46,559 nucleotides of DNA, from positions 1-46,559 of the forward strand of contig JAEURK010000096.1 in the NCBI GenBank assembly GCA_016789175.1, read 5' to 3'. The position numbers were made by a program, and so were the translations under genes. How positions within the stretch are numbered: position 1 is the stretch's first letter; every line of letters starts with the position of its first letter. Below are positions 8,570-25,150 of the stretch, in pieces. Below the pieces are notes generated by a model that was not told the origin of the DNA, did no database searches, and was given only the letters and a program-made list of their open reading frames with translations. This stretch comes from Anaerolineales bacterium (lineage in GTDB: Bacteria > Chloroflexota > Anaerolineae > Anaerolineales > UBA6663).

Positions 8570-10585
8570 TTACTCGGCGGCCGGCCGCGCACGCCGCCGG
8601 GCACTGCGGCGCTCAATCGGATCCGCTGAAGGCGCCGGCAGGATCCCTTCGAGATGCGGGAACGCATCACCGGCATGCGGGATGGCGATCGCGCCCACGA
8701 ACTCGGTCTGGAAATTCGGGTTCACGGCCGTCTGAACGTGCGTGTTCTCACGCGCGATCTGCCCGGCCTCGAGCCGCGCCAACCGGTTCAGCAACGCGAT
8801 CCGGGCGCCGTCACCGGCGGCGTTGCCGACCGCCACGACCCGGTCCAGCGCACAATCCGGGATCAGACCCAACACCATGGCATGGCGCGGGTCGATGTAA
8901 CTCCCAAAGGCTCCCGCCAACACGATGCGATCGACGGCGGCCACGCCGCGCGCCTGCATCAAAAGCTTGACGCCCGCGTATAGGGCAGCTTTGCCAAGCT
9001 GGATCGCGCGCACATCGGCCTGCGTGACAGTGATCGGCTGGCCGGTGGCCGACTGCTCGGCGTCGGCCAACACGTACACGGCGGTGCGGCCGACATACGC
9101 CACACGCGATGAACGCGCCGCAGCCGCCTCACGGAACAACCCATCGGCAGTGATCACACCGGCCAGGAACAACTCGGCCACCGCCTCGATGATGCCGCTG
9201 CCGCAGATGCCCGTGGCGCGGGCCGACACATCGCCAGGCGCCAGCCAATCCGGGTGGCCGATCACCTTCCAACGCGGTTCGAGCGTGAGCGGATCGATCC
9301 GCACCCGTTCGATCGCGCCCGTTGCGGCGCGCTGGCCGTGCGTGATCTGCGCGCCTTCGAAGGCCGGCCCGGTCGGGCTCGAACAGCACAGCACCCCGCC
9401 CCGGTCGCCCAGCACGATCTCGGCATTGGTACCGACGTCGACGATCAACATCAATTCGGCGCTGTGGTGCGGGGCCTCGGCCAGCTGCACAGCAACATTG
9501 TCGGCGCCGACATGCCCGGCAATACACGGCAGGACGTGGACCCGCGCAGCCGGGTTGAGGCGCAGACCCACTTCGCGCGCCTTGAGATCGATCGAGTCGC
9601 TGACCGCCAGCGCAAATGGCGTCCCGCCCAGTTCGACCGGGCTGAGCCCCAACAGCAGATGGTGCATGACGGTGTTGCCGACCAGCACAACGTCGACGAT
9701 ATCGTCTAGCGTGATCCCGGTCGCCTGCGCCGCCTGCTCGGCCAGCGTCTGCAACGTGGCGATCACGGCGGCATGCATCTTCTCGGTGCCATCCGGGTGC
9801 ATCATGACGTAGCTCACCCGGCTCATCAGGTCCTCGCCGTGCCGCACCTGCGGATTCATCGCCGACTCGGTCGCGCGCACGGCGCCGGTGCGCAAATCGC
9901 AGAGATGGACGACAACCGTGGTCGAGCCGACATCAACCGCCAGGCCGAAGGCGCCTTCGGCGTAGCCCGGTTGCACGCGCAGCACCTCGCGCTCCTGCCA
10001 GACCGTCACGGTTACCGCCTGCTTGCCGGCCGCCAGAGCCGGTTGAAGCCCAAGCAGAGCCAGCGGATCGATGGTCAGCGCGTTCAGGCCCCATTGCGCC
10101 TGCAGAGCCGCCTGCAGCCGCTCCCAATCGCCCCCATGTGACTCGAGCGTGGCCGACTGCACCTCAACGTAGACCTGACGCACCGCCGGCAGCACGTCGA
10201 TTTCCCGATCGGTGGCCGCCTTGGCCACGATTTGTTTGCGGGCCTGGCTCTCCTCCGGCACAACGATCAGCAGGTCGCCCTGCACTTCGCAGGCACAGGC
10301 CAGGCGCCGACCCGCCGCCAGAGGATGCTTGTCGAGATACTTGGCCTCGCGCCCGTCGGGGGTGCTCAGGTGCTCGGGCGCCGACGTCAAAGCGAGCTTC
10401 GGATAATGCCCGGCTTCGACCAGGATCTGACACTTGCCACAGGTCTGTCGGCCGGCGCAGATCGATTCGAGCTCAACTCCCAGCTGCCGCGCCGCCTCCA
10501 GAAGGTTGGTGCCACGCGCGACCTGGCCCTGTCGGCCGGACGGCATCAGCGCGATTGTGCAGGCATCCTCAGAGAAATCGGACAT
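8570..10585 (-). CDS. Corrinoid-activating ASKHA ATPase with N-terminal 2Fe-2S domain (RACo-like)
   Basis: Reductive reactivator of corrinoid proteins: the Co(II) form that arises by accidental oxidation is re-reduced with ATP hydrolysis. An N-terminal ferredoxin-like domain has the 2Fe-2S pattern ICAGRQTCGKC (Cys43, 49, 52) and a later Cys near 97 (LACAC). It is followed by a DUF4445/ASKHA region with FGLAVDVGSTTVVVHL, VLVGNTVMHHLLLG, LMLIVDVGTNAEIVLG, GICGSGIIEAVAEL and IVLAGAFGSYIDPRHA. The 671-residue length fits RACo/RamQ-like proteins. It is first in the cluster, with a TATAAT -10 and AGAGAGGTGA ribosome site upstream; GTG at 10588 is an equally possible start. The C-terminus ends in a basic tail (DPIERRSARRRARPAAE) behind a Pro/Ala linker. 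Confidence 0.94.
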   Translation of the reverse strand: MSDFSEDACTIALMPSGRQGQVARGTNLLEAARQLGVELESICAGRQTCGKCQILVEAGHYPKLALTSAPEHLSTPDGREAKYLDKHPLAAGRRLACACEVQGDLLIVVPEESQARKQIVAKAATDREIDVLPAVRQVYVEVQSATLESHGGDWERLQAALQAQWGLNALTIDPLALLGLQPALAAGKQAVTVTVWQEREVLRVQPGYAEGAFGLAVDVGSTTVVVHLCDLRTGAVRATESAMNPQVRHGEDLMSRVSYVMMHPDGTEKMHAAVIATLQTLAEQAAQATGITLDDIVDVVLVGNTVMHHLLLGLSPVELGGTPFALAVSDSIDLKAREVGLRLNPAARVHVLPCIAGHVGADNVAVQLAEAPHHSAELMLIVDVGTNAEIVLGDRGGVLCCSSPTGPAFEGAQITHGQRAATGAIERVRIDPLTLEPRWKVIGHPDWLAPGDVSARATGICGSGIIEAVAELFLAGVITADGLFREAAAARSSRVAYVGRTAVYVLADAEQSATGQPITVTQADVRAIQLGKAALYAGVKLLMQARGVAAVDRIVLAGAFGSYIDPRHAMVLGLIPDCALDRVVAVGNAAGDGARIALLNRLARLEAGQIARENTHVQTAVNPNFQTEFVGAIAIPHAGDAFPHLEGILPAPSADPIERRSARRRARPAAE

Positions 10586-10610
10586 CACGGATCTATCACC
10601 TCTCTAAGTC

Positions 10611-14684: not shown

Positions 14685-17600
14685 ATGAAAATACTTCTTC
14701 AGACGACGGTACGTTTGACAACGGCAGCGGCCCTGGCCTTCTCGTCGGTGAGCCCGGCCGCCGTTCGCGCACAGGCCGCGACGCCGAACCTGTCGGCAAC
14801 CCAGACGGCGCTGTTGATTGACGACGTCGACCACGACGGGCTAGTCGATCCCGGCGACACCTTGCGCTACACGGTCGTCGTCAGCAACACGGGATCGGGG
14901 TCGGCCGAGGGCGTGTCGTTCGCCGAGACGCTCGACGCCAACACCACGCCCACCGGCTTCCTGGAAGCGACACCGCTCGCACACGCCGATGTCTACACCG
15001 CGACGAACGCCGCGGACCTGGTCGTTACGTCGGGCGGTCTGTTGAGCAACGACTTCGGCCTGCCGAGCCTGGCGGCCACGCCCCGCACCCTGGCGGCGAC
15101 CGCCGAGGGCGGCGCGGTGACCATCGACGCCGCCGGCACGTTCACGTACACGGCCGCCGGCGGATTCACGGGCACCGACGCCTTCACGTATACGGTCAGC
15201 AGTGCGGCCGGAAGCGACTCGGGCCTGGCCACGGTCAACGTGTTCGCTCTGCCGGTCGCGCTGGACGAGGCCTACACCGCCCTGCTCGATACGCCGCTCA
15301 CCGTGGCGGCCGGCAGCGGCGTGCTCACCAACGACACCCTCGCCGCCGGGTCGGGGGCGGCGTTTGCCGCGAGCAGCGCCCAGGGCGGCAACGTGTCGCT
15401 CAACGGCGACGGCAGCTTCGTCTACACACCGCCGACGGGTTTCATCAGCCCGCCGGTCGACACCTTCACCTACACGCTCGAAAACCCGGTCGGATCCAGC
15501 ACCGCCACGGTCTCGATCACGGTCGACGTGCCCGGCCCGCCGGTGGCGGCCTCCGATAGCTACACCACGACCGCCAATACGCCCCTCACGGTCCCGCCGG
15601 CCGGCGTGTTCGCCAACGATACCCGCAACGGCGCCGTCATCGACGCCTTCGCCGCCGTGACGGCTCAAGGCGCCAGCGTGGCGCTGGCTGCCGATGGGGG
15701 CTTCGTCTACACGCCGACCGTGGATTTCGTCAGCCCGCCGACCGACACCTTCACCTACACGCTGCGCAACAGCCTTGGTGCCAGCACGGCGACCGTCTCG
15801 GTCACGGTCCTGCCCGTCGGGGCCCCGGTCGCGGTCGCCGACGCCTTCACGGCCACGGCCAACCTGACCCTGACTGTAACGGCCGGCGGCGGCCTGTTCG
15901 CCAACGACACCCGCCACCTGGCGGACCTGGCGGATTTCGCAGCCACGACCGCCCGCGGCGGCTCGGTCAGCGTCGACGTCGACGGCGGCTTCACCTACGT
16001 GCCGCCGGTCGATACAATCAGCCCGCCGACTGACAGCTTTACCTACACGCTCGCCAACCTGCTTGGCGCCAGCACCGCAACCGTCACCCTGACGATCAAC
16101 CCGCCGGCCGAGCCGGCCACCACCGACGACGCCTACACCGCCACGGCCGACACCGATCGGGTCGTCTCCGCCGGCACCGGTGTGCTCGCCAACGACACCC
16201 TCCATTTCGGATCGATCCTGGATTTCTCGGCCGTGACCACGCGCGGCGGCAGCGTGGTGCTCGCCCCCAGTGGCGCCTTCACCTACACGCCGCCGGCCGG
16301 CACCGTCAGCCCGCCGATCGACACCTTCACCTACACGGTCGGCAACGCCCTCGGCCAGGACACGGCCACGGTGCGGATCACGATCAACCCGCCCGGCACG
16401 CCGCTCACGGTCAGCGACAGCTACACGACCACGGTCAACACCGACCTGGTCGTGACAACCGGCTCGGGCGTGCTCGCCAACGACACGCTGCGGTTCGGCA
16501 CGCTCAGCGCCTACGCCGCCAGCACCGCGCGCGGCGGCAGCGTCGTGCTGGCCGCCAGCGGCGCCTTCACGTACACGCCGCCGGCCGATACCGTCAGCCT
16601 GCCGACCGATAGCTTCACCTACACGGTGAGCAATACGCTCGGCGACAGCACCGCAACCGTCACGCTCACCCTCGCGCCGCCCGGCGCGCCCACCGCCACG
16701 GCCGATGCCTACACGGCCACGGCCAACACGCAACTCATCGTCAACGCCGCGGCCGGCCTGTTCGACAACGACACTGTCCACTATGCCACGCTGAGCGATT
16801 ATGCCGCCGTCACCAGCCGCGGCGGGAGCGTGCTGGTCGCGCCGACCGGGGCCTTCACCTACACGCCGCCGGCCGATACCATCAGCCCGCCGACCGACAG
16901 CTTCACTTACACGCTCGACAACCTGTTGGGCACGAGCACGGCCACCGTCACGCTCACGATCGACCCACCCGCCCCGCCGACGGCGGTCGGCGAAAGCTAC
17001 ACGGCGACGGTCAACGTGCCGCTGCTGATTGCGGCCCCGGGCGTGCTCGCCAACGATACGCTTCACTTCGGAGCGATCACGGCCCACGATTCGGCGACGA
17101 CCCAGGGCGGCACGCTGATCCTGGCCGCGAACGGCGCGTTCACCTACACCTCGGCCTTCAACACGCTTGGGGTCGACACCGCCACCTACACCCTCGGCAA
17201 CGCGTTGGGCACCAGCACCGCGACCCTGACGGTCACCGTCCTGCCTCCGCCCCCGGTCGCGGTTGACGACACCTATACGACCACCGGCAACGTCGACCTG
17301 AGCGTAGCCGCTGACAACGGCGTGCTCGACAACGACACCCTGAACTGGGGCGCCCTGACCGGCTCGGCGACGACCAGCGCCCAGGGCGGGGCCGTGGCGG
17401 TCAACGCCAACGGCAGCTTCACGTACAACCCGCCGACCGGCTTCACGGGCACCGACACGTTCACGTACACGGTCAGCAATGCCCTGACGAGCGATACCGC
17501 GACGGTCTCCATCACCGTCAGCGAGCGGGTCTGGTTCGTGGACAACACGGCCGCGGCCGGCGGCACCGGCCGACATAGCGCGCCGTTCGACACGCTGGCC

Positions 17601-20600
17601 GAGGCCGAGGCGGCTTCGAGCGCCAACGACTACATTTACGTCTACTACGGTGACGGCACCAGCACCGGCCAGAACGCCGGCATCACGCTCAAAGCCGGCC
17701 AGCGGTTGCTCGGTCAGGCCGACGCACTGACCGTCAACTACACTACGATCGAGCCGGGCCTGCCCGGCAATAGGCCGCTGATCGTCGCGGGCAGCGGCAA
17801 CGCCGTCACGGCCCCGACGGCCACCGGCGTCGAGGTGCGCGGCGTGCGGCTGACCAGTGGGCCATCGGGTGACGCGCTTGGCCTGACCACCAGTGGTTCA
17901 GCCAACGTCGGATTGACGCTCAGCAATAACGTCTTCAGCGCGCCGTCCAACTCGGGCGCCGACATCGTCCACAACGGCTCCGGCACGCTGACCCTCAGCC
18001 TGGGCAACAACAGCTTCACCGGCGGCGCGCCGGCGTTGCGCATCACACGGAACGCCGGAACGGTCACCATCACGGGTTTCTCCAACATGGTGGTGGATAG
18101 CACGGCAACCGAGGGCATACAACTCTCGAATGTGATCTTCGATGCGACGCCGGGCGGCTCCTACGATGTCGTCAGCGGCGGCACCACCGTGCTCGGAGCC
18201 TCTGGCAACCCCGTCCACGGCCCCGGCCTGACCCTCACCAACGTCAGCGGGGACGTGGCTTTCACCGATCTTGACATCTATGCCGACGGCGCCGCCCTGA
18301 GCGGTTCAGGCTCTGGCTCGTTTGCCACGACTTCCGGCTTCCGCCTGACAACCGGCGCCGGGGTCTCGACCCTGTCGGCGAGCGGCGGCCCGGCCGTCGC
18401 TCTCTCCGCGGCGACGCTCGACCTGCGGCTGTTAACCCTGACCAGCACCGGAAGCTCGACCACCGGCGTGGCGCTGACGAACACCGACGGCACGTTCACG
18501 GCCGGCGCGGGGAGCACGATCACGGGCGCGGCCGGCACCGACTTCTTCGTGGACGGCGGTTCGGGCACCGTGACCTATAACGGCACAATCACCAATACGG
18601 CCGGGCGGTCGGTGGTGGTGAGCAATCGCACCGGCGGCACGCACGCTTTCACCGGCGCGATCAGCGACACCGGCACCGGGATCCAGCTCACGAACAACAC
18701 CGGCGCCACGATCAACTTCTCGGGTGGCCTGACGCTCAACACCGCGGTCAACGGCGCCTTTTCCGCCACCGGCGGCGGCACCGTCACGGTCACGGGCGCG
18801 ACCAACACGCTCCAGACCACGACCGGCACGGCCCTCAACGTCGTCAACACCACCATCGGCGCAGGCGGCCTGACCTTCCGCAGCGTCAGCAGCAACGGCG
18901 CCGCCAGCGGCATCGTGCTCAACACCACCGGCGCGTCCGGCGGCCTGACCGTCAGCGGCACCGGCAGCGCGGGCAGCGGTGGGACGATCCAGAACACGAC
19001 GGGCGCCGGGATCTCGCTCACCAACGTCACTGGCGTCAGCCTGGCGCACCTGAACATCACAACCGGCGGCGACGACGGCATCTATGGCTCGGGCGTGACC
19101 AACTTCACGCTCACCCAATCGACGCTGACCAACAACGGCAATAGCGTCACCGACGAGGGCCTGGAACTCGACAACGTGGCCGGCACGTTGACTTTGAACA
19201 CCGTGGTCATCACGGGCTCGGCCCACAACAACGTCTGGGTCGATAACGCCAGCGGCACTTTGTCGACGTTCACCGTGACAAACGGGTCATACCAGAACAC
19301 CTCGTCGACCACGGGCGCGCACGGCATCCTGCTGACCGCGCGCGGGACCGCGTCCATCGGGTCGGTCGCGATCACGGGCGCCGCCTTCACGAGCAATTTC
19401 AGCTCCGGCGTCTTTGTGGACGTCTCCGGTACGGCTCAGATCACCGATGCCCTGGTACAAGGCGCGACGTTCACATCCAACGCCAACGCCCTCACGTTCT
19501 CGCAGTCCGGGTCCGCAAGCCAGAACTTCCGCGCCCTCAGCAACACGCTGACCGGCGCACAGAGCCACGCGATCAACGTGTTCTCATCCGGCACCGCGAC
19601 CGGCGGCTCGCTCAACGGCCGGATCGTGGGGAACACGATCGGCACCGCCGGCGTCACAAACTCCGGGTCCGCGACCGGTGACGGCATCCGCGCCCGGATC
19701 CAGGCGCAAACCAACGGCCTGCTGCTGATCGACACGAACGTCATCCGTCAGACGCCGAACGGCCGGGGCATCGAGGTCGTGGGCGGCTCGGATAGCCTGG
19801 ACGTCACGATCACGAACAATGACGTCAACCCGCAGGCCGCGCCGGGCGCGTCGCTGGCCGCGATCCTGGTCAACGCCAGCAACCCGACCGGAGGCCAATT
19901 CGGCTTTGTCCGCAGCGACGTCCGCACCAACACCGTGCCGAGCCAGGCCGACAGCCTCGACGCCCTGAACGGCGAATACCTCGTGCTCGATGAGGACTCG
20001 TCCACGACCCTACAGCTGGTCAACACGTCCGGCGCGGCCAACGCCAGCACGCAGCTCGACAACACCAACACGGGCAGCGCCGCGGCGTACTCCTCCGGCG
20101 CCGTGGATCTGATCGCGGGCCCGATCGGCCTGCCGCCGCTGCAGGCCGCCAACGGCCAGGGGCCCGGCGCCGACGCCACCCCAACCGAGCCGCTCGAGGC
20201 TCTGCTGGCGCACGCGATCGACCTGTGGGCCGCGAACGGTCGGGATGTGGCAGGTCTGGCGGGCACGCGCCTGGCCGTGATCGACCTGCCCGACGGGCAA
20301 CTGGCCGAAGCCGACGCGGGCACGCACCTGATCACGCTCGATACCGATGCGGCCGGCTGGGGCTGGTCGTTTACCGCAACCCCGGCCCCGGGTCGGATCG
20401 ATGCCCTGACCGTGATCGCCCACGAGGTAGGCCACCTGCTGGGCTTCGCGCACGCCGATAGCGGTGTGATGGCCGAGGCGCTGGCGCGCGGCCAACGCGC
20501 CCTGCCGGCACCGGTGCTCGACGGCAGCGCGGGCGGGTCATTGACGATCCCGATCGGCAACGTGCCGGCCGGGCGCTCGGTCACGCTCACCTTCGACGCG

Positions 20601-21284
20601 ATCGTCAGCAACCCGGTAGCCGGCGGCGCCTACGTCGTCAGCAATCAGGGCACGCTCACGGGAGCCAATGTCGCAGCGGTCGTCACAGACGACCCGGCCA
20701 CCCCGGCCCTGAACGATGCAACCGTCTCGTCTTTGGATGTCGTCCGCGCCCTCTTCCTGCCGGCGCTCATGCGCGGCTACATGGCTCGGGCGGATCTGAC
20801 GGTCAGCGTCAGCCTCAGCCCGAATGTATCCAGTTTCGCTTCTGAGGAGCCAGTGCTGATCACGGTCGTGGTCACCAACATCGGCAATGCGCCGGCCGAC
20901 GACTTCTGGGTGGACGCCTATCTCAACCCGAACGCCCCGCCCACGGTCGGCAACCAGGTCTGGAACGAGCGCTGCGGCCTGCAGCCCTGTTACGGATTGG
21001 CCTGGTACGTGACGGAGCCGCTCCTGCCAGGCGCCAGTGTCACGTTGACCTCTGGCCCGGGCGGCCCGTACGCCGACAACACCATCTGGCCCGGACACTT
21101 CGCACCGGGCACGACCGACCTGTACATCTACGTCGATAGCTACAGTGACGACGGTGGCCCGGAGGCTTTGATCCACGAACACAACGAAACCAACAACCGG
21201 GCCGAGTTGCACGGTCTGGTGGTTGCCGGGATCACAGCTCAGGACGACCTGACGCTACCGGCCGAGGCCCTGCCGGCCCGCTAA
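14685..21284 (+). CDS. Giant secreted surface protein: split DUF11, nine Ig-like repeats, beta-helix, metzincin-like motif, CARDB
   Basis: 2199 residues. A signal peptide (1-31, ending VRAQA) is followed by the first half of a DUF11-type domain (about 35-98). Then come nine cadherin/Ig-like repeats of ~95 residues (to ~945), each with a 'DxYTxTxNTxL...GVLANDT...GGSVxLxxxGxFTYTPPxxxxxPTDxFTYT' pattern. A right-handed beta-helix region starts with WFVDNTAAAGGTGRHSAPF (949 to ~1820). A protease-like segment has HEVGHLLGFAH (His1913, Glu1914, His1917, His1923) and GVM shortly after. The second DUF11 half (NVPAGRSVTLTFDAIVSNP, ~1950-2020), FLPALMRG and a CARDB domain (~2035-2180) follow. It is probably an adhesin or sheath protein at the cell surface. 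No sortase motif or clear C-terminal anchor is seen. Whether the zinc motif is active is not known. Confidence 0.88.
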   Translation: MKILLQTTVRLTTAAALAFSSVSPAAVRAQAATPNLSATQTALLIDDVDHDGLVDPGDTLRYTVVVSNTGSGSAEGVSFAETLDANTTPTGFLEATPLAHADVYTATNAADLVVTSGGLLSNDFGLPSLAATPRTLAATAEGGAVTIDAAGTFTYTAAGGFTGTDAFTYTVSSAAGSDSGLATVNVFALPVALDEAYTALLDTPLTVAAGSGVLTNDTLAAGSGAAFAASSAQGGNVSLNGDGSFVYTPPTGFISPPVDTFTYTLENPVGSSTATVSITVDVPGPPVAASDSYTTTANTPLTVPPAGVFANDTRNGAVIDAFAAVTAQGASVALAADGGFVYTPTVDFVSPPTDTFTYTLRNSLGASTATVSVTVLPVGAPVAVADAFTATANLTLTVTAGGGLFANDTRHLADLADFAATTARGGSVSVDVDGGFTYVPPVDTISPPTDSFTYTLANLLGASTATVTLTINPPAEPATTDDAYTATADTDRVVSAGTGVLANDTLHFGSILDFSAVTTRGGSVVLAPSGAFTYTPPAGTVSPPIDTFTYTVGNALGQDTATVRITINPPGTPLTVSDSYTTTVNTDLVVTTGSGVLANDTLRFGTLSAYAASTARGGSVVLAASGAFTYTPPADTVSLPTDSFTYTVSNTLGDSTATVTLTLAPPGAPTATADAYTATANTQLIVNAAAGLFDNDTVHYATLSDYAAVTSRGGSVLVAPTGAFTYTPPADTISPPTDSFTYTLDNLLGTSTATVTLTIDPPAPPTAVGESYTATVNVPLLIAAPGVLANDTLHFGAITAHDSATTQGGTLILAANGAFTYTSAFNTLGVDTATYTLGNALGTSTATLTVTVLPPPPVAVDDTYTTTGNVDLSVAADNGVLDNDTLNWGALTGSATTSAQGGAVAVNANGSFTYNPPTGFTGTDTFTYTVSNALTSDTATVSITVSERVWFVDNTAAAGGTGRHSAPFDTLAEAEAASSANDYIYVYYGDGTSTGQNAGITLKAGQRLLGQADALTVNYTTIEPGLPGNRPLIVAGSGNAVTAPTATGVEVRGVRLTSGPSGDALGLTTSGSANVGLTLSNNVFSAPSNSGADIVHNGSGTLTLSLGNNSFTGGAPALRITRNAGTVTITGFSNMVVDSTATEGIQLSNVIFDATPGGSYDVVSGGTTVLGASGNPVHGPGLTLTNVSGDVAFTDLDIYADGAALSGSGSGSFATTSGFRLTTGAGVSTLSASGGPAVALSAATLDLRLLTLTSTGSSTTGVALTNTDGTFTAGAGSTITGAAGTDFFVDGGSGTVTYNGTITNTAGRSVVVSNRTGGTHAFTGAISDTGTGIQLTNNTGATINFSGGLTLNTAVNGAFSATGGGTVTVTGATNTLQTTTGTALNVVNTTIGAGGLTFRSVSSNGAASGIVLNTTGASGGLTVSGTGSAGSGGTIQNTTGAGISLTNVTGVSLAHLNITTGGDDGIYGSGVTNFTLTQSTLTNNGNSVTDEGLELDNVAGTLTLNTVVITGSAHNNVWVDNASGTLSTFTVTNGSYQNTSSTTGAHGILLTARGTASIGSVAITGAAFTSNFSSGVFVDVSGTAQITDALVQGATFTSNANALTFSQSGSASQNFRALSNTLTGAQSHAINVFSSGTATGGSLNGRIVGNTIGTAGVTNSGSATGDGIRARIQAQTNGLLLIDTNVIRQTPNGRGIEVVGGSDSLDVTITNNDVNPQAAPGASLAAILVNASNPTGGQFGFVRSDVRTNTVPSQADSLDALNGEYLVLDEDSSTTLQLVNTSGAANASTQLDNTNTGSAAAYSSGAVDLIAGPIGLPPLQAANGQGPGADATPTEPLEALLAHAIDLWAANGRDVAGLAGTRLAVIDLPDGQLAEADAGTHLITLDTDAAGWGWSFTATPAPGRIDALTVIAHEVGHLLGFAHADSGVMAEALARGQRALPAPVLDGSAGGSLTIPIGNVPAGRSVTLTFDAIVSNPVAGGAYVVSNQGTLTGANVAAVVTDDPATPALNDATVSSLDVVRALFLPALMRGYMARADLTVSVSLSPNVSSFASEEPVLITVVVTNIGNAPADDFWVDAYLNPNAPPTVGNQVWNERCGLQPCYGLAWYVTEPLLPGASVTLTSGPGGPYADNTIWPGHFAPGTTDLYIYVDSYSDDGGPEALIHEHNETNNRAELHGLVVAGITAQDDLTLPAEALPAR
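14979..17523 (+). repeat. Nine tandem ~286-bp coding repeats in the surface-protein gene
   Basis: Repeat units spaced about 286 bases apart encode the ~95-residue Ig/cadherin-like modules, with units 4 to 8 most alike (recurring GGCGGCAGCG..., TTCACCTACACGCCGCCGGCCG...). The number of copies is likely to change by recombination and may be mis-assembled from short reads. Confidence 0.85.
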
Positions 21285-21914: not shown

Positions 21915-23573
21915 TTAGGAACCGGGCAGGCTCCGCTTGAGGTGGAAGGCTTTGACGGCGGCGTGCAGGTTCAGGCGCGTCAGCGCATCCTTCAGGTCGA
22001 CGCTCAGGGCCTGCTCGATCTTGTCGACCCGATAGAGCAGCGTGTTGCGGTGCACGCCCAACAGGTCCGACGCCTGCCCCAACGCGCCGCCGTGATCGAG
22101 ATAGGCCTCGAGCGTAGCCACCAGCTCGCCGTGACCGCGCTGATCCAGCCGATCGAGGGCGGCGACGTGCTCGAAGAATGGATTGGCGCTCACGACCGAC
22201 TCGGGCAGGTGATCGAGCCAGTGCAACAGGCCGAGGCCCCAAAACGGCTCGACATGGGGCGAGGCCTTCAGCCGCAGCCCGATCGCTGCAGCATCGCGCG
22301 CCTCGGCATAGGCATGGCCCAACTGGCCGTCATCGGTGACACCGCGCCCCACGCCGATCACCAGTAACTGACCCGGCGGATTGAGGGCCTCGAGCAGCTT
22401 GGCCGCCACGTCGGTGCCCACGCCGTCTTCGTCCGACTCCAGCAGCACCGCCAGACCTGTATCGCGGATCGTGACCAGGCCGGTCAAGCCCTCCCGCTTC
22501 AGCCAGGCATCCACACGGCCGGCCAGATAAGTCCAACCGCCCTCCTCGCCGGCCCGCCCCAGCAGATACAGAAATTGGTGGCGCTCCCCGAACCGATAGC
22601 CGAGGCGGTGGCCGAGCTCGCTCAAGGCACTGTCACGCAGGCCGCCGGGCTCGGCGCCCGCACGCAGAAGCTGCGCCAGGAAATCGCCGCGTAAGGTCTG
22701 TTGGGTCTCCTGCACGGCGCGCTCTTTGAGCAGCGCCAACGCTGCAACAGTCGCGGCCGTCTCGATCGCGCGCTCATCCAGCCGGGTCAACGGGCGGTTG
22801 CCCGAGAGGATCCAGATGTAGCCGTACACCTCGCGCCCGACGATGATCGGAGCGACCACGCGTTCCATGGTCATCCCGATCTCGGGGATCGGCTCGAGAT
22901 GCAGCGGGCGCATCCCCGAGCGCAACTCAGCGTACACACCGCGGTCAATCAGGGCCGTGATTGTCTGACGCGGCGTGCGTCCGGCCCCTTCCGCATCCTC
23001 GCGCATCGCATCGACCGGGCCGCGCCGGGCGGCGGCCAGGACCGTGTTGCTCGCGTCCTCCACCAGCACCGAGCGCTCGAGGATATCGGCTAGCGTTCCG
23101 GCGAGCGCGTCGAGCCCGCGCCCCTCGAGCACCAGCCGGGTCAGTTTGCCATGGACCTCGTCGACGCGTTTGTCGAGCGCGAACTGATCATTGAGCAGAT
23201 CGACGTACAGGCGCTCCAGGACGGCGATGAAGCTGGTCTGGGGCGGCACTGCGATGACCGGCAGGTTTTGCTCATCGGCCGCCTGACGGATCACGTCCGG
23301 CACCTCGTCGAAGTACCAGCCGGTGGCGAAGACCACGCCGGCCACGCCCTGACGCACCAGCGAGGGCACGAACTCGGCCTGCAGCGTGCGGTTGTGGCGC
23401 ATGCCGTAACCGGCGGTGAGCAACAGCAAACCGCTGGCCCAATCCCCGAAGTCGGTGCCGGGCATATCGACCACGTGAGCGCGTTGAATGATGCGCTCGA
23501 GCCCGCTGGCCCCGCCCACGACGCGAGCGGTCTCCAGGATCGGCAACTGCAGAGCGGCACGCACGGTCAACAT
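21915..23573 (-). CDS. PucR-family transcriptional regulator
   Basis: A 552-residue regulator. It has an N-terminal PucR ligand-sensing domain (MLTVRAALQLPILETARVVGG, VVDMPGTDFGDWASGLLLLTAGYGM, GVAGVVFATGWYFDEVPDVI), a GAF-like middle (ILERSVLVEDASNTVLAAA, RVVAPIIVGREVYGYIWI), a CdaR/GGDEF-like region and a C-terminal PucR helix-turn-helix (TLEAYLDHGGALGQASDLLGVHRNTLLYRVDKIEQAL). I start at ATG 23573, behind GGAGGGG, five bases after the stop of the MttB-family gene. This family usually regulates catabolism of a nitrogen compound; here it probably controls the adjacent methyltransferase gene, and perhaps the corrinoid cluster, in response to the methylated amine. Confidence 0.9.
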   Translation of the reverse strand: MLTVRAALQLPILETARVVGGASGLERIIQRAHVVDMPGTDFGDWASGLLLLTAGYGMRHNRTLQAEFVPSLVRQGVAGVVFATGWYFDEVPDVIRQAADEQNLPVIAVPPQTSFIAVLERLYVDLLNDQFALDKRVDEVHGKLTRLVLEGRGLDALAGTLADILERSVLVEDASNTVLAAARRGPVDAMREDAEGAGRTPRQTITALIDRGVYAELRSGMRPLHLEPIPEIGMTMERVVAPIIVGREVYGYIWILSGNRPLTRLDERAIETAATVAALALLKERAVQETQQTLRGDFLAQLLRAGAEPGGLRDSALSELGHRLGYRFGERHQFLYLLGRAGEEGGWTYLAGRVDAWLKREGLTGLVTIRDTGLAVLLESDEDGVGTDVAAKLLEALNPPGQLLVIGVGRGVTDDGQLGHAYAEARDAAAIGLRLKASPHVEPFWGLGLLHWLDHLPESVVSANPFFEHVAALDRLDQRGHGELVATLEAYLDHGGALGQASDLLGVHRNTLLYRVDKIEQALSVDLKDALTRLNLHAAVKAFHLKRSLPGS

Positions 23574-23578
23574 GATGG

Positions 23579-25150
23579 TTACCCCTCCCCCCCGGTGGGC
23601 CATGGCGTGCGCGGTAGCCGCGCGCGCAGTTCATGCCGACGATGGGCCACGAAAGCCTCGAGTTGCTCGCGCAACGCGGGATCGATCGGCGGCGCTTCGT
23701 AGGCCTTGAGCATCTCTTTGTAGAGCCCGTTGGCACGGCGATAGGCGTCGACCGAGCCTTCGGCCTCCCATTTCTCGTAATTGTCCATCGTAAAAGCCTT
23801 GTGGTTGAAGAAGGCCGTGTCGTAGTGGCGCAGCGTGTGTTGCGCGCCCAGGAAGTGGCCACCCGGCGGGATCTCGGCGTAGGCGTCCCAGGCGAAGTCT
23901 TCCTCGGTGAGGCTGATGCCCTCGACCTGGCGCGCCATCATCGCGCACATCTCGAGGTCGAGCACGAACTTTTCATAGCCCGCGATCAGCCCGCCCTCGA
24001 GCCATCCCGCCGCGTGCAGCACGAAGTTGACGTTGGCGGCCAGCGTCGCGCCAAAGGTCGCGGCCGACTCGTAACCGGCCTGAGCATCGGGGATACGCGC
24101 TGCGGTGAAGTTGCCGCCGGAGCGGTACGGCAGGTTGTAACGCCGCGCCATCTGCGCGCCGGCGAGCAGGGCCAGGTTGTCTTCGGGCGTGCCGAAGCAC
24201 GGCGCCCCGCTCTTCATGTCAATGTTGGCCAGGAATGAGCCGTAGATCACGGGCGTGCCGGGGTTGAGCATCTGAGCGTAAGCGATGCCGAACAAGGCCT
24301 CGGCGTTCTGCTGGGCGAGCGTCGCCGCCAGCGTGCTCGGCGACATCGCGCCGGCAATGATGAAGGGCGTGACCAGCACCGCCTGGCGGGCCCGCGCGTA
24401 CACCTCCAGCGCGCCGAACATGCGGTCGTCGAACCGTAGCGGGCTCGAGGCGTTGATCAGCGAGAGCACGGCCGGCTGTTCGCGGATGCGCTCGGCGCCG
24501 AAGACCAGCTCGGCCATCGCCACCGTGTCGCGGGCGTTGTCGGCGTGGGTGACCGAACCCATGAAGGCTTTGTCGCTGAGCGTGAGGTGCGCCAGCAGCA
24601 TGTCGAGGTGACGCTCGCGCACGTCGACGTCGTTGGGCTCGACCAGGGTGCCGCCGTTGTGATGCAGGTGCTCGGCCAAATAGGTCAGCTTGGCGAAGTT
24701 GTGGAAATCCTCGAGTGTGGCCTGGCGCCGACCGAAATCCAACCCGCCGACAAAAGGCGGGCCGTACACCGGTGCGAAGATGACGTGTCGACCGCCGATC
24801 TCGAGGTTCTTGGCGGGATCGCGGGCCAATTGAATGAAGGTCGCCGGCGCCTGGCTGATGAAGTGCAGGAGCGTCTCGGCCTCGATGCGCACTAGCTCAC
24901 CCTCAACGGTGGCGCCGTTCCGGCGAAAGGTCTCGAGCGCTGCCGGGTAGTCGAGGACCAGGATGCCGGTGTCGCGCAGCAGACGCATCGAGGCCTGGTG
25001 GATCAGCTCGACGCCTTCCTCGGAGAGCACGGTCGTGATCGGGAGCCGGTTGAGGAGGCCTTGAACGGTGCGGTGGCGATGGGAGGCTCCCGGGCGCTGG
25101 GCCTCGCGGCGTTCCCGGCGTCGGGTGGCGCGGTCCTGTGCCATCGTCAT
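23579..25150 (-). CDS. MttB-family (trimethylamine/glycine betaine-type) corrinoid methyltransferase, no pyrrolysine
   Basis: A 523-residue TIM-barrel methyltransferase of the MttB superfamily: LSEEGVELIHQASMRLLRDTGILVLDYP, FIQLARDPAKNLEIGGRHVIFAPVYGPPFV, the segment MGSVTHADNARDTVAMAELVFGAERI and AGYESAATFGATLAANVNFVLHAAGWLEGG. There is no in-frame amber codon, so it belongs with the non-pyrrolysine members such as MtgB (glycine betaine) rather than trimethylamine MttB. Its predicted job is methyl transfer from a quaternary amine to the corrinoid protein at 7.4-8.1 kb. An Arg-rich N-terminus (TRRRERREAQRPG) precedes the barrel. A strong ribosome site (GGAGGAGGT) and a good promoter lie upstream, and the PucR gene follows. 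Confidence 0.92.
   Translation of the reverse strand: MTMAQDRATRRRERREAQRPGASHRHRTVQGLLNRLPITTVLSEEGVELIHQASMRLLRDTGILVLDYPAALETFRRNGATVEGELVRIEAETLLHFISQAPATFIQLARDPAKNLEIGGRHVIFAPVYGPPFVGGLDFGRRQATLEDFHNFAKLTYLAEHLHHNGGTLVEPNDVDVRERHLDMLLAHLTLSDKAFMGSVTHADNARDTVAMAELVFGAERIREQPAVLSLINASSPLRFDDRMFGALEVYARARQAVLVTPFIIAGAMSPSTLAATLAQQNAEALFGIAYAQMLNPGTPVIYGSFLANIDMKSGAPCFGTPEDNLALLAGAQMARRYNLPYRSGGNFTAARIPDAQAGYESAATFGATLAANVNFVLHAAGWLEGGLIAGYEKFVLDLEMCAMMARQVEGISLTEEDFAWDAYAEIPPGGHFLGAQHTLRHYDTAFFNHKAFTMDNYEKWEAEGSVDAYRRANGLYKEMLKAYEAPPIDPALREQLEAFVAHRRHELRARLPRTPWPTGGEG

Follow-up and report, generated by a model that had tools for sequence, protein, structure and literature searches.

Giant surface proteins usually take their names from their repeats, and the one encoded in the window (the whole 46,559-nucleotide stretch of Anaerolineales DNA that was analyzed) carries in addition a histidine motif of the kind found in zinc peptidases. 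The question is whether this motif marks a real enzyme-like domain and, if so, what such a domain would do in such a protein. The reading that we favor, with reasonable though far from complete confidence, is that this giant secreted surface protein has, close to its C-terminus, a minimal metzincin of ~115 residues that serves as an exchangeable zinc-peptidase cassette.

The host is an open frame of 2199 residues on the forward strand (14685..21284), as are all the features within it, and is a giant secreted repeat protein of the tandem-95 repeat family (Pfam Big_9, 1.8e-60). Judged by eye from the translation, residues 1-31 (14685..14777) are a likely N-terminal signal peptide. They are followed by residues 33-96 (14781..14972; TIGR01451 at 54-88), the first half of a split DUF11 domain, and by nine Big_9, cadherin-like, or tandem-95 repeats (~residues 95-945, 14967..17519), where PF17963, PF17803, and PF17892 each match nine stretches and NF012211 also matches. 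The beta-helix-like repeat region after them (~residues 950-1800, 17532..20084) gave no HMM match and was recognized by reading the translation and by homology to two relatives, L071 and L077; the window protein is 31.7% identical to L071 across residues 1235-2194. The metzincin module, supported by the family HMM, AlphaFold2, and PDB fold matches, occupies residues 1829-1943 (20169..20513). The second DUF11 half (residues 1953-2025, 20541..20759) and a CARDB-like C-terminal domain (residues 2036-2172, 20790..21200) complete the protein. The CARDB-like domain has a sub-threshold match to Pfam PF07705 (E 0.43) and is conserved in L071, L077, and a third relative, L078.

The preliminary description had read HEVGHLLGFAH at residues 1913-1923 as a metzincin-like zinc motif. 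The motif HEVGHLLGFAHADSGVM begins at residue 1913 of the window protein, and H1913, E1914, H1917, H1923, and then M1929 (together 20421..20471) lie exactly as placed there. Given the composition of the protein (24 His, 33 Glu), HExxHxxGxxH is expected ~5e-6 times per protein by chance. A chance motif within a low-complexity adhesin linker would agree with the whole-protein score against the Pfam matrixin model M10 (PF00413), which is 19.3 bits over residues 1894-1931 and under the curated cut-off of 24; the module alone scores 25.0 bits. However, ~90 homologous copies share a common signature outside HExxHxxGxxH, and since this homologous family rules out a chance origin, we rejected that explanation as having almost no probability.

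The family was defined by a profile built from 29 sequences, to which the window module aligns over positions 5-143 of 152 (20169..20513; E 1.2e-26 in its own genome). Since the window copy is itself in the profile, the independent evidence comes from the tblastn and HMM matches to other genomes. Two clear homologues were found in the order and phylum of the window, L003 (genome G157) and L011/L071 (G338). The latter has the same layout as the window protein, with a beta-helix, the module, a half DUF11, and CARDB, and its motif is HEQGHLLGLDD. Using these homologues as queries against bacterial genomes, we obtained 43 loci, ~29 of which are the same module, carried by Planctomycetota, Burkholderiales, Bradyrhizobium, Labrenzia, Azotobacter, Methylobacter, Verrucomicrobiales, Sinomonas, and a Chloroflexi MAG. 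Plasmid records of Nostoc, Calothrix, Anabaena, Rhizobium, Undibacterium, and Rhodococcus also carry it, in proteins of up to ~13,000 residues. When 30 carrier genomes or records were searched, 88 matches were obtained (at most 17 per genome) in frames of up to 12,950 residues. Together, the ~90 copies represent Planctomycetota, Verrucomicrobiota, Pseudomonadota, Cyanobacteriota, Actinomycetota, and the phylum of the window. Their hosts, mostly of 1,000-13,000 residues, are giant secreted proteins in at least six bacterial phyla. In many members the module lies near the C-terminus and adjoins linkers; it is N-terminal in cyanobacteria, Sinomonas, and Verrucomicrobiales and central in beta- and gamma-proteobacteria.

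Copy number is highest in a Pirellulaceae genome (L051, G502) with 17 module matches; a Gimesia genome (L016, G478) has 12, some of them in tandem neighboring genes. Two proteins of ~11,000 residues, on the Anabaena plasmid pANACY.01 (L060) and on a Calothrix plasmid (L062), carry a module close to the N-terminus and, far downstream, a second that bears an insertion. In genome G268 (L012/L073), a 13,036-codon frame ends in the first half of the module, followed by a stop, with no HExxH. This locus, being degenerate or truncated, was set aside as a family member.

In the searches made, this family had no Pfam or NCBIfam model of its own, and Pfam M10 matched 27 of the 29 members weakly. A literature search with the signature sequence returned no match, and LEPR-XLL likewise gave nothing useful. 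The plasmid-borne hosts are named for their CARDB, tandem-95, Ig-like, or DUF4347 parts, or are unnamed, which would explain how a recurrent enzyme-like part has been left without its own model. Judged by these sequence matches, the module belongs to an unnamed, widespread family of mini-metzincins.

In the numbering of the window module, the columns L48, D66, G71, G73, W74, H93, E94, G96, H97, and G100 are invariant in the 29 aligned members, including the H, E, H, and G of the motif, and A69, A70, D86, L99, M109, L113, G116, and R118 are nearly so. M109 corresponds to M1929, the putative Met-turn residue of the window copy. Of the 40 modules in one set, 39 keep HExxH, as do 86 of the 88 readable modules in a larger, overlapping set. 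Because the scan patterns contained HExxH, sampling favors intact copies, but copies with a degenerate motif reached 74-100 bits and would have been detected despite this bias. At least three relatives have lost HExxH: the first copy in L064 (VQQLG), L140 (REMGH), and L153. The L064 protein (~12,950 residues, on an Undibacterium plasmid) has two modules, the destroyed one first and an intact one, HELGHVLGLGD, second. The third ligand varies, being Asp in 44 and His in 34 members of the 88-module set, with insertions there in most of the remainder; L071 and many other relatives have Asp where the window copy has His1923.

The preliminary description had also called the spacing from the third His to the Met shorter than in matrixins, and this held as well, with 6 residues in the window compared to 8 in karilysin and MMPs. 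Nearly all modules have a Met at +5 to +12 after the third ligand; +6 is common among relatives, and one has +5. Because +6 recurs in many relatives, the short spacing is a family trait rather than decay.

An AlphaFold2 model of the module, made from the 29-sequence alignment, reached a pLDDT of 87.5 for the whole module, 93 or more in the core, and a pTM of 0.81. Its elements in module numbering are helix 17-30, strands 42-46, 54-57, and 62-66, and helix 87-98. This core of three strands and two helices matches the arrangement of sheet, backing helix, and active-site helix in metzincins. A model of a longer member, L023 from Labrenzia (pLDDT 91.1, pTM 0.87), has an extra hairpin. For both models, the best solved matches in Foldseek were MMP catalytic domains (probability up to 1.00; TM 0.51-0.54 for the window module), with TM values of ~0.5, E values no better than 0.0017, and rmsd of 4-6 Å. 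The TM of ~0.5 together with the weak E values suggests a reduced, diverged MMP-type fold. Sequence-profile matches to solved metzincins did not extend beyond the active-site helix and Met-turn (4.8e-8 for karilysin), and a profile-profile match to bacterial matrixins (98%) covered 53 columns of the active-site region. It had been proposed that a predicted structure should bring the three histidines and the glutamate together. This expectation was borne out in part: H1913, E1914, and H1917 are predicted to lie on one confident helix, in a model that matches MMP catalytic domains.

The model also shows what the window copy lacks. No helix of four or more residues was found beyond residue 98 of the window-module model, and other members have a second hairpin and a final helix that are missing here, so the substrate cleft may be incomplete. 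In an alignment with the matrixins L008 and L010, read by inspection, ITLDTDAAGWGW occupies the place of the matrixin segment LHFDDDERW (pattern HFDDDE.W). Based on the known anatomy of MMPs, this segment would lack the His of the structural zinc site.

Matrixins (M10A, including MMPs and karilysin; PF00413) are among the closest known enzymes and give the module's best Foldseek and profile matches. They share with it HExxHxxGxxH, a downstream Met, and an Asp...Trp strand before the active-site helix. In matrixins, however, a Ser or Thr follows the third His, and there are a five-stranded sheet, a structural zinc/calcium loop, and a C-terminal helix, all of which are absent from the module; the window copy has Ala1924 after His1923. 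The family also differs from matrixins in that about half of its members use Asp as third ligand. In contrast to vertebrate MMPs, there is no cysteine-switch propeptide, as the only cysteines of the window protein, Cys2097 and Cys2102, are both C-terminal of the module. Snapalysin (M7, PF02031) is likewise a very small metzincin of ~130 residues, and its HExxHxxGxxD occurs in many relatives of the module. Snapalysin profiles covered most of the module below threshold (PF02031, 18.7 bits with a cut-off of 25; NF033628, 17.8 bits with a cut-off of 300). Unlike the module, snapalysin is secreted as a free enzyme and has a final helix, and the window copy has His as third ligand. The crystallized mini-zincin Acel_2062 has ~110 residues, a three-stranded sheet, little past the third ligand, and no shown function (PMC3890501). 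It differs in being a stand-alone protein with no Met-turn, whereas the window module keeps the Met and is a cassette. The setting within a giant adhesin has parallels. Stieleria varia Pla52n_17500 (6858 residues), a giant cadherin-like planctomycetal adhesion protein, is annotated "Matrixin" (PMC7717043), a likeness that we draw from its annotation line. Desulfovibrio vulgaris DvhA and DVU1545 are described as giant surface adhesins with a metzincin domain, which in their case is serralysin-like and C-terminal (PMC13090378). The window module is a reduced metzincin that lacks several defining features of matrixins and comes from a recurrent cassette family.

The position given earlier for the module, with a beta-helix on one side and the second half of a DUF11 domain on the other, was confirmed, and the first half was located at the N-terminus of the protein. 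When the two halves (33-96 and 1953-2025) were joined, they scored 34.2 bits against PF01345 over profile positions 13-99. The first half alone scored 23.6 bits, and the second half alone had no DUF11 match. As controls, the first half was joined to a Big_9 repeat (22.7 bits) or to a hand-scrambled second half (21.8 bits). Equivalent joins in L077, L078, and L071 gave 49.8, 39.1, and 40.4 bits. From these scores, one DUF11 appears to be split over ~1,850 residues in the window protein, and also in L071, L077, and L078. Since the joined halves outscore the controls, a single DUF11 would hold in its loop all nine repeats, the beta-helix, and the metzincin module, and its halves probably bring together both ends of the protein.

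A complete genome of the same family as the window (G010) encodes two proteins with 52% identical C-termini. In the longer one (2195 residues), the repeats and beta-helix are followed by a ~45-residue linker in place of the module and then by a half DUF11; the other (1344 residues) has neither the beta-helix nor the module. We rejected the idea that the module itself splits a DUF11, as these module-less relatives keep the same half and have the other half N-terminally. The absence of the module from orthologous proteins shows that it is an optional cassette. Vertical inheritance within the phylum of the window is unsupported: five of 201 genomes passed the threshold, two of these five look like ordinary HExxH proteases, and only three have a real family copy. 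An 85-row tree, with few columns, did not place the window copy. We do not argue that the short-hairpin type is tied to particular phyla, since its members are few and the phylum labels, which take the window, L071, and L072 as Chloroflexota, are partly our own assignment. A phage origin was also dropped; phages gave no match, and two matches in viral contigs were unrelated HExxH proteins.

In the cassette reading that we favor, the N-terminal helix (1837-1850) would back the three-stranded sheet (1862-1866, 1874-1877, 1882-1886), and helix 1907-1918 would supply H1913 and H1917 as well as E1914 as the general base. H1923, beyond a turn at G1920, would be the third zinc ligand, with M1929 as the floor of the Met-turn. 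This would be a matrixin-like core from which two strands, the last helix, and the loop for structural zinc and calcium have been removed. Zinc binding, presumably of one ion, is likely because the ligands, the general base, and the methionine of the putative Met-turn are conserved and the predicted fold is consistent with it. Peptidase activity is plausible on the same grounds, but less sure for the window copy because its second hairpin and last helix are lost. Such a peptidase may be weak or specific and would be held at the cell surface by the host protein; its likeliest targets would be the host giant, its flanking linkers, or neighboring matrix proteins.

The module could instead bind zinc for structure only, the metal stabilizing a small domain that spaces or joins others. 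Mini-zincins of similar size without shown activity exist (PMC3890501), the losses of HExxH in L064, L140, and L153 indicate that the fold can persist without catalysis, and the window copy is short of a hairpin and the last helix. However, Glu1914 shows the same invariance as the histidines although its role is catalytic rather than metal-binding, and the Met-turn methionine and an LxxGxR tail are kept, which makes this alternative possible but doubtful. The preliminary description had left open a minimal protease or a degenerate module; the minimal protease is favored, with catalytic residues conserved across phyla and a confident fold model, and degeneracy is not. A peptidase might also be a self-processing device, cutting the giant in cis or between copies at an adjoining linker and thereby maturing or releasing the adhesin. 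The module's place beside linkers near the C-terminus in many members would suit this, the metzincin Mep72 apparently cuts itself loose from its binding domains by autoproteolysis (PMC4334185), and large adhesins of D. vulgaris have a serralysin-like domain (PMC13090378). That the module could release its own giant is a hypothesis. Against this, its position varies among members, and no conserved cleavage site was noticed, although no systematic search was made. In the window protein, the module lies inside the DUF11 loop, so that a single cut would nick the loop and need not free either part. Self-processing is unlikely as the explanation here. The wider idea, that this family of ~110-residue mini-metzincins with a His or Asp third ligand is a general cis-processing cassette that cuts giants at set places after secretion, is quite improbable on present evidence.

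The family offers a testable route by which giants could process themselves. It also forms a natural series of ever smaller metzincins in which the hairpin, the last helix, and the type of third ligand vary, and this series allows one to ask how little of the metzincin fold still binds zinc and cuts peptides.

Elsewhere in the window, on the reverse strand, a gene for a PucR-type regulator lies beside a trimethylamine methyltransferase (MTTB) gene (21915-25150), and a RACo-type corrinoid activator is encoded further upstream (8570-10588). These genes look like a methylamine-type corrinoid methyltransferase neighborhood that is unrelated to the adhesin.
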